DNA of 6,515 nt from JBFMHD01 sp040752395 [NCBI: Candidatus Hydrogenedentota bacterium]. Its GTDB lineage: Bacteria > JBFMHD01. A model generated the notes under the pieces. That model worked only from the letters and a program-made list of their open reading frames with translations. It had not been told where the DNA came from and did no database searches. Made by a program: the position numbers and the translations under genes. Positions 1,330 to 6,515 of the stretch are shown here, in pieces (the stretch's first letter is position 1; every line of letters starts with the position of its first letter). The stretch spans positions 1 through 6,515 of the forward strand of contig JBFMHD010000089.1 in NCBI GenBank assembly GCA_040752395.1, read 5' to 3'.

Positions 1330-2130
1330 TTACCAGCAACTCATCCCGCCATCGATAATTAAATTCTGGCCAGTAACATACTGTGAAGCATCAGAAGATA
1401 AATATAAAACGCCGCCAACTATATCATCAGTCATTGCCATACGTCCAAGCGGACACCTATATGAATACTTCTTTACAAAATCTTTGCCCTGCGGATTTTG
1501 TGGATTAAATACTCCGCCAGGCGATACACAGTTTACACGGATACCATATCGGGATAGATGAACAGCATAGTATCGTGTCATCTGAATAATAGCTGCTTTA
1601 GTAGCACCATATACCTCAGAATTCTTTCTTTTGCAATCGGTGTATATTCTATAATCAGGACTTATCACTCCATAGATCGACCCTATGTTGACTATAACAC
1701 CCCTGGTTCTACTTTTAATTAATTCTCTGGCATATTTCTGTATACAAAAGAATGTCCCTTTTAAATTCACATCCATTACCCAATTAAATCTTTTCTCGCT
1801 TCTTTCTAAAAAAGGTTCGAAGGTGCTGGCACCGGCATTGTTGATTAAAACATCGAGCTTTCTATGTTCTCTAAATATCTTCCCAAACATCTTTGAGACA
1901 GATTCCTTTTTCCTGATATCAACAGTATATAGAAACAATGTATCATAAGTATTTGTTAAATTTTTTAAATTTTTCTTGAGGTTTTTAATATCTAAATCTG
2001 CAGCTAATACAATCGCTCCACACTCTAAAAATGTTCCAACTAATGCTTTACCTATCTGTCCAGCAGCACCGGTAATTAAAACCCTCTTCTTTTCAAGATT
2101 GAACAATTTTTCAATATAATTCTTATTCAT
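1330..2130 (-). CDS. Short-chain dehydrogenase/reductase (PtmA-like sugar oxidoreductase)
   Basis: This is a classical SDR, an NAD(P)-dependent oxidoreductase of 266 residues, the usual length. It shows the cofactor glycine motif TGAAGQIG (20-27), an acidic pair after strand 2 (AADLD, 43-47) suggesting NAD preference, NNAG (97-100), Asn122 in VNLKG, Ser151 in GSIYG, the catalytic YGATK (Tyr174, Lys178) and PGGVFNPQNP (204-213). The C-terminus LIIDGGMSCW closes the fold. The insert around 157-172 and the PGGV segment recall the PtmA-type SDRs found in flagellin-glycan and legionaminic acid loci. That resemblance is from memory and the substrate is unproven. Its ATG overlaps the stop of the TIM-barrel gene in an ATGA junction, so the two are coupled. 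The local ribosome binding site (AAGAAAG) is weak. Placement before the NeuB-family gene supports a role in making or modifying that enzyme's sugar. Confidence 0.9.
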   Translation of the reverse strand: MNKNYIEKLFNLEKKRVLITGAAGQIGKALVGTFLECGAIVLAADLDIKNLKKNLKNLTNTYDTLFLYTVDIRKKESVSKMFGKIFREHRKLDVLINNAGASTFEPFLERSEKRFNWVMDVNLKGTFFCIQKYARELIKSRTRGVIVNIGSIYGVISPDYRIYTDCKRKNSEVYGATKAAIIQMTRYYAVHLSRYGIRVNCVSPGGVFNPQNPQGKDFVKKYSYRCPLGRMAMTDDIVGGVLYLSSDASQYVTGQNLIIDGGMSCW

Positions 2131-2903
2131 ACTTTCTTAATTAAGTTTTTAACCTCTTTAATAATATTAAAAAGAGTATCAATAGATTTATAATACTCTA
2201 TTGTTAAATATTTCACATTATTATAATCTTTTAAAATATCAAGCAACAACTTATAAATTTCATTATCTGGTCTATTGTGATTATCTCTTGCAATACCGTC
2301 TTTAATAGAATATCTGGAAATATGAACCTGTATACACTTTTCTAATGGCAGGTTCTTAATATAGTAATGATAGCTAATCTTTTTATTATATGAGGAGATA
2401 ATGGCATGTGAGATATCAAATAAAAAATTAATTTTGTTATCGTATACGATCTCTAATAAAAAAGAGCTGTCTGTTATTATATCGTATGCTTCTGATGGAT
2501 AATAATTGTTATTTTCAATAGCTATCAATATATCATTGCTTAAAATCTCTTTTAGAATCTTAAGGTTGTCTTTTGCATTTCTTAACATTTCTTTTTTAGT
2601 AAACTTTTTCCCATTAGACTGAAATATACCATTTTTTATAATAGGGTTACTGTAACAGGATGGTATGTGGAAACTGATTAATTTTAAGTCTTTCTTAAAA
2701 TTTTTTATCAGATATAAATGCTTTATCTCTTCGTTTTCTTCCCAGTTTTTAACTATGCTTATATCTGAATGATATAAATATTGACGATTTATATCAGAAT
2801 GAAATGATGCATCTCTGCATTCAAAACAATTGGATATATTGACTACTTTGGCTATCGCTTTTTTATGCCTGAATAAATGAGAAAGCGGAGTAGCAATTAA
2901 CAT
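2127..2903 (-). CDS. Xylose isomerase-like TIM-barrel protein with a metal-site pattern, function unknown
   Basis: The 258-residue protein has the residue spacing of metal-dependent TIM barrels of the xylose-isomerase/endonuclease-IV superfamily. The candidate ligands are His79 in SFHIP, Glu130 in IAIENNN, Asp163 and His166 in FDISHA, His194 in VHIS, Asp207 and His209 in DNHNRP, and Glu236 in TIEYY. The DNHNRP and TIEYY pair also recalls the DUF692/MbnB iron-enzyme group. A sugar isomerase or epimerase is the simplest guess, but an oxidative metalloenzyme is possible. The gene is richer in Lys, Asn, Ile and Tyr codons than its neighbours, which may mean a different origin. Its ATG lies inside the end of the aminotransferase gene (7-nt overlap) with no visible ribosome binding site, so translation is probably coupled. 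No signal peptide is seen. Confidence 0.75.
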   Translation of the reverse strand: MLIATPLSHLFRHKKAIAKVVNISNCFECRDASFHSDINRQYLYHSDISIVKNWEENEEIKHLYLIKNFKKDLKLISFHIPSCYSNPIIKNGIFQSNGKKFTKKEMLRNAKDNLKILKEILSNDILIAIENNNYYPSEAYDIITDSSFLLEIVYDNKINFLFDISHAIISSYNKKISYHYYIKNLPLEKCIQVHISRYSIKDGIARDNHNRPDNEIYKLLLDILKDYNNVKYLTIEYYKSIDTLFNIIKEVKNLIKKV

Positions 2904-4051
2904 AAAATTTGTCGAAGAGTAGAGATCACATCATCGACATCAGTCTCTGTTAGTTTCGGCGATAAAGGTAAACTTACTGTTGTCTCACCAATATAAAAGC
3001 TATTTGAATAATCTTCTGGTTTCCAACCATATGTTTCTCTGTAATACCTGTGAGTAGGTATACTTCTATAATGCACGCCGATACCGATATTGTGGTCTGT
3101 CATTCTTTTTAAAAATTCATCACGGCATAAACCGCATCTTTTTTTATCAATTAATATTGTATATAAATGCAGAGAATGTTTTGTATTAGCTTCAATAGGG
3201 GAGGGTAGTTCTATGTGTAAATCAGATAAAGCAGAATTGTATCTTTCCCATATCTCTTTCCTCCTCTCCCAGTATTTATCTATTCGTTTTATTTGATGTA
3301 TCCCAAGCGATGCCTGTAAATCTGTCATATTATATTTAAAACCAGGTGATATAACCTCGTAATGTTTAAATCCCTCATCTGAAAACCTTTTCCAGGCATC
3401 CTTGCTCATACCATGCAGGGCAAGGACCTTTATTTTATTCGCATACTCTTCATTATTAGTTATAACCATACCGCCTTCAGCTGTTATAATGTTTTTTGTT
3501 ACATAAAAACTAAAACAACCCATTTCGCCGAACGTCCCTGTCTTTCTGTTTTTATATTCTCCCTCAATCGCATGCGCACAATCCTCAATTATTTTTATAT
3601 TATGTTCTTTTGCTATATCACAAATTTCATCCATATTACAGGGTCTGCCTGCAAAATGAACAGGTAAAATTGCTTTTGTTTTTTTAGTAATTTTTTTTAG
3701 TATTTCAGCTGGATCAATATTCATTGTGTGGCGATCACAATCTGCTAAAACCGGTGTTGCACCTGAATGTATTATAGCATTTATCGTGGCGCAAAACGTC
3801 ATAGGTGTGGTTATCACTTCATCATCTTTCCCTATCCCTGCTGCTAATAATGATAAATGGAGTGCTGCGGTGCAGGAACCTAAAGCAATAGCATATTTTG
3901 CCTTTTTATATTCTCTGAATAATTCCTCAAACCTCGCCACTTTAGGTCCTGTCCCTATCCAGCCTGATTTAAGTGTTTCTAATACCTCGTCTATCTCTTC
4001 TTCCTCAATTAATGGGCTTCCAAAAATTAAAAAATTATTTTTATCTCTCAT
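2897..4051 (-). CDS. DegT/DnrJ/EryC1/StrS-family sugar aminotransferase
   Basis: PLP-dependent enzymes of this family transfer an amino group, usually from glutamate, to a keto-sugar, commonly a nucleotide-linked one. The 384 residues match the normal length. Visible motifs are SGWIGTGPKV (29-38), GSCTAALHLS for phosphate binding (58-67), PVHFAGRPCNM (130-140), EDCAHAIEGEY (156-166), FSFYVTKNIITAEGGM (180-195) with Lys186 as the predicted PLP lysine, and the subunit-interface segment YNMTDLQASLG (240-250). The ALHGM and VHYRSIPTH segments are also typical. It is the first enzyme gene after the two regulators, 81 nt behind the NusG paralog, and overlaps the next gene by 7 nt. The start is preceded only by a modest AAGG 6 nt upstream. 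The sugar substrate is not identifiable. Neighbouring NeuB-family and SDR genes suggest an amino-sugar or nonulosonate precursor. Confidence 0.93.
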   Translation of the reverse strand: MRDKNNFLIFGSPLIEEEEIDEVLETLKSGWIGTGPKVARFEELFREYKKAKYAIALGSCTAALHLSLLAAGIGKDDEVITTPMTFCATINAIIHSGATPVLADCDRHTMNIDPAEILKKITKKTKAILPVHFAGRPCNMDEICDIAKEHNIKIIEDCAHAIEGEYKNRKTGTFGEMGCFSFYVTKNIITAEGGMVITNNEEYANKIKVLALHGMSKDAWKRFSDEGFKHYEVISPGFKYNMTDLQASLGIHQIKRIDKYWERRKEIWERYNSALSDLHIELPSPIEANTKHSLHLYTILIDKKRCGLCRDEFLKRMTDHNIGIGVHYRSIPTHRYYRETYGWKPEDYSNSFYIGETTVSLPLSPKLTETDVDDVISTLRQILC

Positions 4052-4132: not shown

Positions 4133-4684
4133 CTATCTTACCTCAAAGATACATAAATCTACTAATCGATTCACACCTAAAAACTTTAACTCTACTTTCA
4201 CCCGATTCTTTCTTTTGTTAATCCCTCTTATTATACCTTCGTAACCCTTTAATGGTCCCTCAATTATCTTTACTATCTCACCCTCTCTGTAAAACCTTGA
4301 TTCCTCGACAATACCCTCCCTGTTTACTAAATCAAAAACTACCTTCATCTCTTCTCTTTCACAGAAAAAAGGACGATCCTCCTTCATAAGAATTTTAATA
4401 AACCCCTGTAATATGCTCTTTTTTCTATATATAGTTTTGCATAAATCAAGATTGTATAAAGAATCATCCTCGCCTTTAATAAATAAATATCCCGGATATA
4501 ATGCCTTGATATTATATAAATACTCGCCTTTCTTCCTTATATATAATTTCCGCCTTGGGAAAAATAGTCTCGCCGGCTCTTTGATTAAATCCAAAAGAAC
4601 ATCTGTTATCCGGCCTTCTTTACCCGCATATGTCTGAATAACAAACCAATTGCTACAGTTATCAGTCATTATATCTATAGCCAT
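4133..4684 (-). CDS. NusG-paralog transcription antiterminator (UpxY/LoaP/RfaH type)
   Basis: Specialized NusG paralogs join the elongating RNA polymerase on particular long operons, often surface-polysaccharide loci, and stop premature termination. The 183 residues show an NGN domain: NWFVIQTYAGKEGRI (12-26), ARLFFPRRKLYIRKKG (38-53) and LYPGYLFIKGE (62-72). A KOW domain follows near 133-165, with REGEIVKIIEGPLKGYEGII (133-152). The PRRK....K.G and PGY.FI spacing is that of the UpxY/LoaP class rather than of housekeeping NusG. I chose the ATG at 4684 because AGAGG lies about 10 nt upstream, whereas the internal ATG (residue 6) has no ribosome binding site. The gene overlaps the winged-helix gene by 10 nt, so the two are made together. 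Its likely target is this operon, which begins with it. Confidence 0.88.
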   Translation of the reverse strand: MAIDIMTDNCSNWFVIQTYAGKEGRITDVLLDLIKEPARLFFPRRKLYIRKKGEYLYNIKALYPGYLFIKGEDDSLYNLDLCKTIYRKKSILQGFIKILMKEDRPFFCEREEMKVVFDLVNREGIVEESRFYREGEIVKIIEGPLKGYEGIIRGINKRKNRVKVELKFLGVNRLVDLCIFEVR

Positions 4685-5265
4685 ACTATAATACCCTCTT
4701 TATCCATCTCTCTTATATTTTCAGCAATGTAACTTTTCAACAATACGCTGTTTGCAATAATAAGATAATTACTACCTTTATTCTTTTTTTCTATTATTTC
4801 CTGGAAACTGAAAACCTTATAACCTAATTTTTCATTTATTTCTTCTTCATCCTTGATAAATCCTATGAAATTAAAGCCATAATTTTTTACCCCTAAAAAT
4901 ATCATCTCTGCCCAGAGATCCGTACCGTAAATATAAATTTCTCTGCTGTTTACCTGTATCTCATTCAATTTATGAAGTATAATATCCCTCACACTCATAA
5001 AATAATCTATACTGCCTTTTAATATATTATAATTATATCTTAATCTTTCATTAAATCCATAGGGTGTCAGTACATATTTAAGCATTTGCTTATTCTTTAA
5101 TTTTTTTATTTTGATTAATCCTTTTTCTGCTAATTTATTTATAAAAAGATTCACCATTCCAAGAGAGAGATTTAACTCTTTTGCTAAAGCCCTCTGGGTT
5201 ACATTCTCTCTCTTGTATATCTCATTTAGTATCTCGACTTCTTCTCTTCTTATCTCTTCAGTCAT
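4675..5265 (-). CDS. EPS-type MarR-like winged-helix regulator fused to a Rossmann-like domain
   Basis: Residues 8-72 form a winged helix-turn-helix: TQRALAKELNLSLGMVN (23-39) is the HTH, and KGLIKIKKL followed by KYVLTPYG forms the wing and exit. This resembles the small MarR-type regulators found at exopolysaccharide loci, which are about 100 residues. Here the protein continues to 196. A linker (75-105) leads to a compact alpha/beta segment: EIYIYGTDLWAEM (109-121), FIGFIKDEE (133-141), GYKVFSFQEI (149-158) and YLIIANS (167-173). This order resembles the nucleotide-sugar or CoA-binding Rossmann domain at the N-terminus of PglD-like acyltransferases, though its first loop lacks the usual glycine-rich motif. 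A ligand-sensing role is inferred. AGGGAG (5276-5271) sits 5 nt before the ATG. It is the first gene after the strong promoter with twin palindromes, so autoregulation is likely. Confidence 0.85.
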   Translation of the reverse strand: MTEEIRREEVEILNEIYKRENVTQRALAKELNLSLGMVNLFINKLAEKGLIKIKKLKNKQMLKYVLTPYGFNERLRYNYNILKGSIDYFMSVRDIILHKLNEIQVNSREIYIYGTDLWAEMIFLGVKNYGFNFIGFIKDEEEINEKLGYKVFSFQEIIEKKNKGSNYLIIANSVLLKSYIAENIREMDKEGIIVWL

Positions 5266-5277
5266 AACGACTCCCTA

Positions 5278-5378
5278 TGAAAAGTCTTTAGTCTCAAGTC
5301 GTAAATCAAAAACTAATGACTCAAGACTGATTTATTGACTCACGACTCTGTGACTTTTAGACTGATTTCATATCATCT
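5278..5378. repeat. GAGTC/GACTC heptamer leader element in the 5' UTR of the regulator gene
   Basis: The stretch is built of 7-nt units such as tctttag, tctcaag, ctcaaga and ctgattt, with a one-base phase slip near 5334. It is a longer, diverged relative of 1197-1252. Both begin tgaaaagtctt/ttagtct, contain gactcacgactct (5338-5350 and 1228-1240), and end ttcatatcatct (5367-5378 and 1241-1252). The arms agtctcaagtc (5290-5300) and gactcaagact (5318-5328) pair at 9 of 11 positions. The predicted transcript therefore carries a hairpin about 12 nt before the ribosome binding site. Confidence 0.65.
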
Positions 5379-5441
5379 CCTATATCTTGCCTCTACCTAC
5401 CATCTCCTGATGAAAGATAAAATACCCACTGAAAATGGTTT

Positions 5442-5460
5442 CTGTTCAATTATTGAACAG
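5442..5460. promoter_or_regulatory. Operator 1: perfect palindrome overlapping the -10 box
   Basis: CTGTTCAATTATTGAACAG is a perfect inverted repeat with 8-bp arms and a 3-bp centre. It overlaps the last bases of the predicted -10 box and the expected transcription start, a classic repressor position. It shares TGTTCAnnnnnTGAACA with the site at 5495-5511. The winged-helix protein encoded directly downstream is the obvious candidate binder (inference). Confidence 0.8.
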
Positions 5461-5486
5461 TATATCTATTTTTTTATTTTTGTCAA
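5459..5486 (-). promoter_or_regulatory. Sigma-70-type promoter of the regulator/glycan operon
   Basis: On the minus strand a consensus -35 TTGACA (5486-5481) is followed by a 16-bp AT-rich spacer and -10 TATACT (5464-5459). The predicted start is near 5452, giving a leader of about 187 nt before the winged-helix ATG. It is the only clear promoter in the window and lies between two copies of the same palindrome. Confidence 0.82.
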
Positions 5487-5494
5487 GTCCAAAA

Positions 5495-5511
5495 TGTTCA
5501 TTTTTTGAACA
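5495..5511. promoter_or_regulatory. Operator 2: matching palindrome upstream of the -35 box
   Basis: TGTTCATTTTTTGAACA has 6-bp arms around a 5-bp centre and the same TGTTCAnnnnnTGAACA form as operator 1. It lies 8 bp upstream of the -35 box. The centres of the two sites are 52 bp apart, close to five helical turns, so proteins bound at both would face the same side of the DNA. Confidence 0.75.
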
Positions 5512-5600
5512 CCCTTATTTTAATATTCACAAAGATTTAGTCAAATAGCTAAGCCCTAAACCAAACAGGCATCATAACCCTTACCCCTTTACCAAATGAT
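5512..5600. other. Spacer between cysC and the operon promoter, no feature identified
   Basis: This AT-rich stretch holds no convincing gene and no hairpin-plus-U-run terminator for cysC. Together with 5266-5511 it makes a 340-base gene-free gap, whose other contents are the leader repeats, promoter and palindromes listed separately. Confidence 0.5.
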
Positions 5601-5663
5601 ACTTCTCACTTCTTAGTTCTTACTTTTGTATCCTCTGTCTCCTGTCTCCTGTCTTCTATATAT
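5601..5663. repeat. Heptamer repeat array overlapping the 3' end of cysC
   Basis: Nine consecutive in-phase 7-mers run acttctc, acttctt, agttctt, acttttg, tatcctc, tgtctcc, tgtctcc, tgtcttc, tatatat on the plus strand. All but the first few bases lie inside the cysC frame and encode roughly residues 200-217. The units are a different sequence family from those at 1124-1242 but share the 7-nt period. Confidence 0.8.
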
Positions 5664-6259
5664 CCTTTAGCTATTAAATATTTCATAATTTTACTCTGTG
5701 ATTCTTCTATTGTCTCATTTTCAGTATCAAGTATAAGTTCAGGGTTTAATGGTTCTTCATAGGGGGCAGAGATACCTGTAAACTCTTTTACTTCACCTCG
5801 CCTTGCCCTGCCCCACAAACCTTTGGTATCCCTCTTTTCACAACACTCTATACTACATCTTACGTAACACTCTATAAAATCACCTTCTTTCACAATCGAC
5901 CTTACTCTATCTCTGTCTTTTCTGTATGGTGATATAAATGCTGTTATTGCGATTATACCTGCATCTACGAATAGTTTTGCCACCTCACCTATGCGTCTTA
6001 TATTTTCTTCTCTATCTTCTTTTGAAAATCCCAAATTTTTATTTAACCCCTGCCTTATATTGTCACCATCAAGCACATAACTTCTCACTCCTCTCTGGAA
6101 AAGTTTTTCTTCAAGTTTGTATGCTATTGTTGTTTTTCCCGAACCCGATAACCCGCTCAACCAGATGATACAGCTTTTATGTCTGTTTGTGTGTTCGCGG
6201 TCGGTGCGTGTAATCGCGCCGTGGTGCCAGAATACATTTGTTGTTCTTGTATCAATCAT
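5606..6259 (-). CDS. cysC: Adenylylsulfate (APS) kinase
   Basis: CysC phosphorylates adenosine 5'-phosphosulfate with ATP to give PAPS, the donor for sulfate reduction and for sulfotransferases. The 217-residue protein shows NVFWHHGAITRTDRE (8-22), the P-loop GLSGSGKT (36-43), LDGDNIRQGLN (63-73), FSKEDREENIRRIGEVAKLF (78-97), AFISPYRKDRDRVR (107-120) with Ser110 at the family's phospho-serine position, KGLWGRARRGEVKEFTGI (146-163) and PYEEPLNPEL (166-175). The family is about 200 residues, and the conserved fold ends near residue 199. The extra charged tail IEDRRQETEDTKVRTKK is read from heptamer repeats. The start is fixed by the strong AGAGGAGG at 6273-6266. No ATP sulfurylase, PAPS reductase or sulfotransferase gene is in the window. 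A role in glycan sulfation is possible but unproven. Confidence 0.95.
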   Translation of the reverse strand: MIDTRTTNVFWHHGAITRTDREHTNRHKSCIIWLSGLSGSGKTTIAYKLEEKLFQRGVRSYVLDGDNIRQGLNKNLGFSKEDREENIRRIGEVAKLFVDAGIIAITAFISPYRKDRDRVRSIVKEGDFIECYVRCSIECCEKRDTKGLWGRARRGEVKEFTGISAPYEEPLNPELILDTENETIEESQSKIMKYLIAKGYIEDRRQETEDTKVRTKK

Positions 6260-6266
6260 AATTAAC

Positions 6267-6297
6267 CTCCTCTGAAAAACATTGTAACTATAATAAT
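6267..6297 (-). repeat. Conserved RBS leader module, copy 2 (upstream of cysC)
   Basis: It is identical to 1091-1121 except for one base (30 of 31). It carries the cysC ribosome binding site, 7 nt before the ATG. A weak promoter-like pair, TTGCTT and TATTAT 18 nt apart, runs into this copy. It is not conserved at the other copies, so I do not call a promoter. Confidence 0.8.
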
Positions 6298-6335: not shown

Positions 6336-6343
6336 ACATCTGG

Positions 6344-6370
6344 TTTTTCATACGTTGTGTAGAGCGCAAA
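6344..6370 (-). repeat. Interspersed repeat covering the end of a mini-ORF, copy 2
   Basis: It matches 1257-1283 at 26 of 27 bases. Its 14-nt core gtgtagagcgcaaa (6357-6370) is repeated directly at 6412-6425. The two cores flank the octamer tract as 14-bp direct repeats. Confidence 0.75.
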
Positions 6371-6434
6371 AACCCAAAAACGCAATAACCCAATAACCCA
6401 ATAACCCAATAGTGTAGAGCGCAAACGCGCTCAT
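6348..6434 (-). CDS. Putative 28-residue hydrophobic small protein or leader peptide
   Basis: ATG at 6434 opens a 28-codon frame ending at TGA 6348. AGAGGAG (6446-6440) lies 5 nt upstream inside the third leader module. The peptide starts MSAFALYT and ends CALHNV. Residues 9-22 (IGLLGYWVIAFLGF) are hydrophobic enough for one membrane span. The middle is read from an octamer repeat (GGGTTATT on the minus strand), so the composition may simply reflect the repeat. The start and end match the 10-codon mini-ORF at 1293-1261, and frame is kept despite about 54 nt of extra sequence. It precedes cysC and could be a leader peptide, a small membrane protein, or a chance frame in repeats. Confidence 0.3.
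   Translation of the reverse strand: MSAFALYTIGLLGYWVIAFLGFCALHNV
6368..6411. repeat. Octamer tandem repeat (AATAACCC)
   Basis: Units run aaaaaccc, aaaaacgc, then aataaccc three times and a partial aata. The minus strand carries four GGG tracts, three of them spaced by 5 nt, so a G-quadruplex is conceivable. The tract lies between two direct copies of gtgtagagcgcaaa. Confidence 0.8.
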
Positions 6435-6439
6435 GGGTA

Positions 6440-6515
6440 CTCCTCTGAAAAACGCTGTAACTCTAATAATTCGGGGTACAGGCTACAGGCTACGGACTAC
6501 AGCCGGCTGGAGCCC
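6440..6515 (-). repeat. Leader module copy 3 joined to a heptamer array, reaching the window edge
   Basis: This 76-nt stretch matches 1091-1166 at 73 of 76 positions, covering both the RBS leader module (6440-6470) and the first heptamers (from about 6473). The match is still perfect where the window ends, so the repeat probably continues. It precedes the 28-codon mini-ORF, as 1091-1166 precedes the NeuB-family gene. Confidence 0.85.

Follow-up and report, generated by a model that had tools for sequence, protein, structure and literature searches.

The window, by which we mean the whole stretch of 6,515 nucleotides analysed, carries on its minus strand a surface-polysaccharide operon whose promoter has an exact TGTTCAnnnnnTGAACA palindrome on either side. 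The genes and elements, in the direction of transcription, are as follows.

5606-6259, minus strand: adenylylsulfate kinase gene, upstream of the regulator promoter and on the same strand as the operon
5495-5511, no strand: O2, putative distal operator, TGTTCATTTTTTGAACA, exact match
5481-5486, minus strand: -35 box TTGACA, from the promoter scan
5459-5464, minus strand: -10 box TATACT, from the promoter scan
5443-5459, no strand: O1, putative proximal operator, TGTTCAATTATTGAACA, exact match
5276-5372, minus strand: long hairpin predicted in the mRNA leader that separates the regulator gene from the promoter
4675-5265, minus strand: regulator of 196 aa, N-terminal winged helix (MarR/HTH_24) and C-terminal Rossmann-like domain with a weak PglD_N-like signal; proposed to bind O1 and O2
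4133-4684, minus strand: LoaP-type NusG paralog (processive antiterminator), NF033641 at 132.8 bits against a cut-off of 125
2897-4051, minus strand: DegT/DnrJ sugar aminotransferase (PseC-like), from profile matches
2127-2903, minus strand: TIM-barrel protein of the MbnB/TglH/ChrH (MNIO) type, PF05114 at 56.9 bits
1330-2130, minus strand: short-chain dehydrogenase, PF13561
235-1083, minus strand: NeuB/PseI-like nonulosonate synthase, PF03102 above its cut-off, TIGR03569 and TIGR03586 below theirs

The last 10 bp of the regulator gene also belong to the LoaP-type gene, and the aminotransferase, NeuB-like synthase and dehydrogenase downstream place the regulator in an exopolysaccharide gene cluster, the setting expected for the TIGR04176 family. 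An MNIO-type TIM barrel (2127-2903) lies within this sugar operon. The genes at both window ends are flanked by intergenic repeat families (1080-1166, 1256-1283, 6256-6297, 6343-6370 and 6429-6515), with copies up to 96% identical and one repeat running past the window end. The mRNA leader of about 187 nt folds as a whole at -48.5 kcal/mol (z -3.6 versus shuffled sequences) and gave no Rfam match at gathering scores; its hairpin, partly made of a repeat also present at 1199-1239 (D3), might perhaps serve the LoaP-type protein.

The promoter scan gave TTGACA (5486-5481), 16 nt and TATACT (5464-5459) on the minus strand with a score of 11/12, from which we infer a transcription start at about 5452. 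The first-pass annotation of this DNA had described two matching palindromes bracketing the operon promoter, and both are indeed exact (5443-5459 and 5495-5511), with centres at 5451 and 5503, a distance of 52 bp or 4.95 turns at 10.5 bp per turn. The distal copy lies upstream of the -35 box, as that annotation had it, and ends 8 bp from it. The description of the proximal copy as lying over the -10 box was loose: on the minus strand the final T of TATACT doubles as the initial T of the palindrome, and with this one base in common the palindrome abuts the box, lies mostly downstream of it and spans the expected transcription start. The window holds no other match to TGTTCAnnnnnTGAACA, even with two mismatches permitted, a quality at which 0.39 matches are expected by chance and two or more were seen in 10 of 200 shuffles.

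The first gene of the operon had been said to encode a winged-helix protein, and its product scored above the gathering cut-offs of PF01047 (31.7 bits, cut-off 24.6) and PF13412 (39.5 bits, cut-off 21.9), which places it in the MarR superfamily. Against MarR_EPS (TIGR04176) it reached 54.8 bits at a cut-off of 88, and hence is a relative rather than a member, although the winged-helix half of all 42 aligned members of its family matches this model at E ≤0.001 and the polysaccharide-cluster setting is shared; it also differs in having 196 aa with an added C-terminal Rossmann-like domain, against 105 positions in the model. The helix-turn-helix residues Q24, G36, N39, Y64 and T67 are invariant in the 42 members, the window protein included, but at other, nearly invariant winged-helix positions it deviates (N43 for K, Q60 for R, R74 for K, Y77 for L), and for this reason it could favour a slightly different site.

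The C-terminal half shows a Rossmann-like pattern with a glycine-rich turn, for which the commonest residues in the family are GxGxxAE and those in the window protein GTDLWAE. The window protein matched PglD_N at E 0.025, below the cut-off, and single members gave weak C-terminal matches to PglD_N (4/36, best E 3e-4) and C2185-like_N (9/36). A C-terminal profile matched 2g6t, an uncharacterised protein, in the PDB (E 0.0011) and weakly 3nkl, a UDP-quinovosamine dehydrogenase domain (E 0.18), while the sole match outside the regulators among all fetched ORFs was a fragment that by eye is FlaA1/CapD-like (E 0.011). Single-sequence structure prediction of the regulator had a mean pLDDT of 43.9, too poor for a fold search. 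Given the weak PglD_N, C2185-like_N, 3nkl and FlaA1/CapD-type resemblances, we tentatively propose, with moderate to low confidence, that the C-terminal domain is a nucleotide-sugar sensor.

A direct search of the genome contigs with the regulator gave no relatives, and the aminotransferase was used as query instead, yielding 12 loci through which other genomes were reached. There the window regulator was the query (E ≤1e-8), and it had relatives in 125 of the 295 genomes from the phylum of a 'Nitrospirae bacterium' genome and in 52 of the 198 from that of a 'Desulfobacterales bacterium' genome (hereafter phylum 1 and phylum 2; both names inferred). At the same threshold there were none in the phyla of genomes G007 (0/7), G008 (0/118) and G003 (0/120), searches that had no positive control and show little. 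The genomes searched contained no close relative of the window protein; the closest full-length one is 33% identical over the full alignment, with long local alignments up to 37%, and it is this distance that makes conservation of a non-coding motif informative. Motif counts were made on 163 loci (164 ORFs), divided into 154 full-length relatives (ORF ≥180 codons) and nine short ones, with L016 left out as a partial match. For phylum 1, six weak short matches out of 139 were left out (G206:C12, G225:C20, G221:C147, G295:C6, G025:C48 and G121:C16); for phylum 2 the best 30 of 52 matches were counted, nine more were checked separately and 13 were left out.

Within 250 bp upstream of the 154 full-length relatives, TGTTCA-N5-TGAACA was found in exact form in 55; permitting one mismatch raises the number to 125 and permitting two to 141, leaving 13 with none. 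The exact core GTTCA-N5-TGAAC is present over the same distance in 130/154 and absent in 24, versus a mean of 0.08 and a maximum of 1/154 in shuffled upstream sequences and 0/152 in stretches further into the same loci; its ten bases sit at the promoter, and the five-base spacer is variable. A conserved site over the promoter of the own gene in orthologs is what is expected of an autorepressor. By phylum the core was found in 110/124 (phylum 1) and 20/30 (phylum 2, best 30 of 52), and in 4/9 of the further, more distant phylum 2 relatives. Since the genomes are related, the Fisher and binomial values given below overstate independence, and we therefore also counted non-redundant sets, in which the core was upstream of 41/54 relatives at <60% identity, 18/27 at <50% and 7/10 at <40%. 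Among the nine short MarR_EPS-type homologs (L015, L199, L201, L202 and L203 were noted as such) six have the core upstream, mostly further upstream than in the full-length relatives and with A or G as first base in 5/6, so that the short MarR_EPS branch may share the operator.

The first-pass annotation had proposed a search of related genomes with a test of co-occurrence, and had named a motif scattered away from promoters or missing upstream of orthologs as the outcome that would speak against it; neither was seen. In phylum 1, a combined promoter and operator pattern (TTGAC-N17-24-TGTTCANNNNNTGAAC) occurs at 52 places in 49 of the 295 genomes, 48 of which carry the regulator versus 125/295 overall (Fisher p = 7e-20, kinship ignored), and 46 of the 52 sites lie at most 450 bp upstream of the regulator; the reversed pattern gave one match across all phylum 1 genomes. 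The picture is less sharp in phylum 2 (spacer N12-24), where 25 of the 31 pattern-bearing genomes have the regulator versus 52/198 overall (p = 4e-12, kinship ignored), and where 16 of 35 sites are directly upstream of it, six more within 3 kb and 13 elsewhere.

Exact sites without the promoter requirement numbered at least 75 in at least 62 genomes among the matches listed (tally 68), versus 11 genomes for the backward pattern. In genomes without a detected regulator there were 21 among the matches listed, against about 29 expected for 12 bases. Sixteen exact sites among the matches listed are away from the regulator in genomes that have one, and nine of these were inspected: five precede polysaccharide-type genes (an ABC-2 exporter, two GDP-mannose dehydratases, a flippase and an acyltransferase), a sixth is in front of a decayed copy of the regulator, with a NusG-like gene behind it, and the remaining three lie inside a gene, inside a doubtful long ORF (by eye about 160 bp before a Clp-like ORF) and before a gene without Pfam match. 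Locus L209 (1029-1100) has a promoter and operator with an ATG in the right arm and stops a few codons on, and seems to be the decayed remnant of a second regulator copy in front of a NusG-like gene. A promoter-plus-operator scan of viral contigs gave 65 stretches, with a regulator relative in only two (L286 and L289) and the remainder chance-like. Both (L289 6061-6330 and L286 1-240) contain two operators at a distance of about 25 bp, as well as a promoter and a regulator relative truncated by the contig end in L286 and by a stop in L289, and their neighbours are by eye sugar-nucleotide-like (L289) and phage-like genes, two of the phage-like ones without Pfam match.

The distance from the -35 box (at most one mismatch) to the operator falls into two main classes, 19-22 nt in 54 of the 130 core sites and 13-14 nt in 46. 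At 19-22 nt, a class that includes the window with 21 nt to O1, the operator begins where the -10 box ends and extends over the start site, while at 13-14 nt the -10 box is by eye within the operator; both placements fit repression. Conservation concerns the proximal palindrome and its placement against the -10 box, and a distal copy is optional: more than one site (at most one mismatch each) was found in 14/154 relatives. Seven of these have a distal copy 45-52 bp upstream, as considered below, three have spacings of 22, 23 and 68 bp, and four have overlapping palindromes at 15-bp spacing. In the latter (L013, L080, L110 and L184) the two palindromes share two bases, and because of this overlap their inner arms form a third palindrome, an arrangement that is commoner if two mismatches are permitted.

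The right arm reads ATGAAC at 66 of the 130 core sites, and in 53 of the 66 its ATG is in frame with an open reading frame into the regulator, where one in three is expected (p = 6e-15, relatedness ignored); in 38 no other possible start codon precedes the conserved region. As the -10 box immediately precedes the operator, the transcript is expected to start no more than a few bases from this ATG. A Shine-Dalgarno-like sequence was found at 0/53 of these sites versus 10/59 of the other sites with an ATG further downstream (p = 0.0015), which is mild evidence for leaderless mRNAs. We predict that these 53 relatives have leaderless mRNAs with the start codon within the operator. The window differs: some 187 nt of leader separate the expected start from its regulator ATG, which is outside the operator.

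A NusG-like gene is among the next three genes in 78 of the 144 relatives with a downstream ORF, and directly next in 64. For 53 of the 66 relatives without one the next gene was scanned, and the commonest matches were sugar-nucleotide dehydratases/epimerases, nucleotidyltransferases, flippases, ABC-2 exporters, sugar dehydrogenases and glycosyltransferases.

Can the two palindromes of the window act together, as cooperative or looped binding in helical phase had been suggested? Dimers five helical turns apart would then make contact over the -35 box or draw the DNA into a short loop, a possibility we regard as improbable even though the 52-bp distance is close to a whole number of turns, both window copies are exact, and distal copies at 45, 47, 48, 49, 50, 50 and 52 bp from the proximal one in 7/154 relatives far exceed the 0.003 expected by chance, three of the seven (L081, L093 and L102) having three copies each. 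The pair is accordingly real and recurrent, but the spacing spreads over about 0.7 turn, so that helical phase is not conserved, and 140/154 relatives lack a second site even when one mismatch is permitted; a fixed phase was therefore rejected, and cooperative or looped binding in helical phase found no support. A loop of only 52 bp would also be unusual for a small dimer. By eye, the distal copy in six of the seven relatives is 1-8 bp upstream of a -35-like box, a position that is enough to give the spacing range. The two copies could alternatively serve tandem promoters, each with its own operator, P1 (TTGACA-16-TATACT) with O1 and P2 (TTGACT-16-TAAAAT) with O2. The P2 match (TTGACT 5544-5539, 16 nt, TAAAAT 5522-5517, minus strand, 10/12) is weaker than that of P1 and ends 5 bp before O2, which would put its start site inside O2; however, of the five promoter-like matches found by the scan in 5200-5800, 2.0 are expected by chance, the distance of 27 nt from the P2 -35 box to its operator is outside the main classes of 13-14 and 19-22 nt (counted in relatives up to about 26 nt only), and by eye there is no good promoter before the distal copies of L081 and L102, and this arrangement is likewise unlikely.

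That the palindromes are instead RNA hairpins or terminators is hardly credible. A terminator scan does flag 5442-5460 on the plus strand (one found versus 0.1 expected), but the stem has eight pairs of which three are G-C, and by eye no plus-strand gene leads into it; in relatives the core is at the promoter with a variable spacer, and the start codon lies within the motif in 53/130. On these grounds the terminator reading was rejected. We also consider it quite unlikely that the motif is the operator of another polysaccharide regulator and merely travels with this family. Some sites are indeed away from the regulator gene, and binding by the regulator itself is a prediction, but the near-complete presence of the family in pattern-bearing phylum 1 genomes and the site at its own gene in 46/52 cases argue for autoregulation, as a site at the family's own gene is the usual mark of an autoregulator.

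Motif conservation, co-occurrence and promoter anchoring together strongly support the earlier proposal that the motif is an autoregulatory operator for the adjacent winged-helix regulator, and very probably the two palindromes serve this regulator as the DNA switch of its own operon. A winged-helix dimer, presumably of the window protein, would bind TGTTCA-N5-TGAACA, and on O1, against the -10 box and over the start site, it would block RNA polymerase and so repress, rather than activate, its own operon, comprising the regulator, the LoaP-type antiterminator and the polysaccharide genes. The Rossmann-like domain probably senses a pathway intermediate that would relieve repression, its weak likeness to PglD/NeuD and FlaA1/CapD-type nucleotide-sugar-binding domains suggesting the kind of ligand. 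O2 would be an accessory site that raises occupancy, probably via protein-protein contact or local concentration rather than a fixed-phase loop. As a whole this model, in which O1 and O2 are operators of the first-gene winged-helix protein, with autorepression at O1, a sensor domain and an accessory O2, is one that we hold with high confidence from comparative sequence evidence.

An autorepressor with an operator at its own promoter is a well-known kind of circuit. Rex, a redox-sensing repressor, combines a winged helix with a Rossmann domain and binds operators over promoters, and the window regulator resembles it in domain order, size and operator placement. The window protein did not, however, match the Rex models at E 0.001, just one of the 42 aligned members has a Rex match, and the glycine turns (GxGxxAE in the family, GTDLWAE in the window) are not the NAD-type GxGxxG. 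In the lambda phage the cI mRNA from PRM is a leaderless autorepressor message that starts at its start codon beside operator DNA; the 53 relatives are comparable, but hold the ATG inside the right arm of the operator itself. With its LoaP-like next gene above the cut-off, the window also resembles long operons headed by LoaP/RfaH/UpxY-type NusG paralogs. Bacillus LoaP is reported to require a small UNCG-loop hairpin in the leader (PMC12691694). In this target feature, described for Bacillus velezensis, the window differs: no UNCG hairpin with a stem of at least five pairs was found on its minus strand. Searches of open-licence papers yielded neither an operator for the TIGR04176 family nor the motif itself, and neither an operator-embedded start codon nor a NusG-type pairing for the regulator family.

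On balance we lean towards the view that these relatives represent a widespread, undescribed family of polysaccharide autorepressors, with a winged helix and a nucleotide-sugar-type Rossmann domain, which would share one common 17-bp operator across at least two phyla plus the lineage of the window. In many of them a stretch of about 25 bp appears to hold the -10 box, the start site, the operator and the start codon; a single site would then govern both the start of transcription and the first codon of a leaderless mRNA, and with a NusG-type antiterminator often next this may amount to a two-step switch of initiation and elongation. The regulator family is common among little-studied bacteria and, in the searched literature, known from annotation only; for it, this provides a concrete putative operator and gene circuit, predicts which polysaccharide promoters the family controls, and offers a natural set of operators containing the start codon of a probably leaderless message. 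One module would tie control of initiation to a NusG-type elongation factor, and if the Rossmann domain senses a nucleotide sugar, there would be direct feedback from sugar-coat precursors to the sugar-coat genes.
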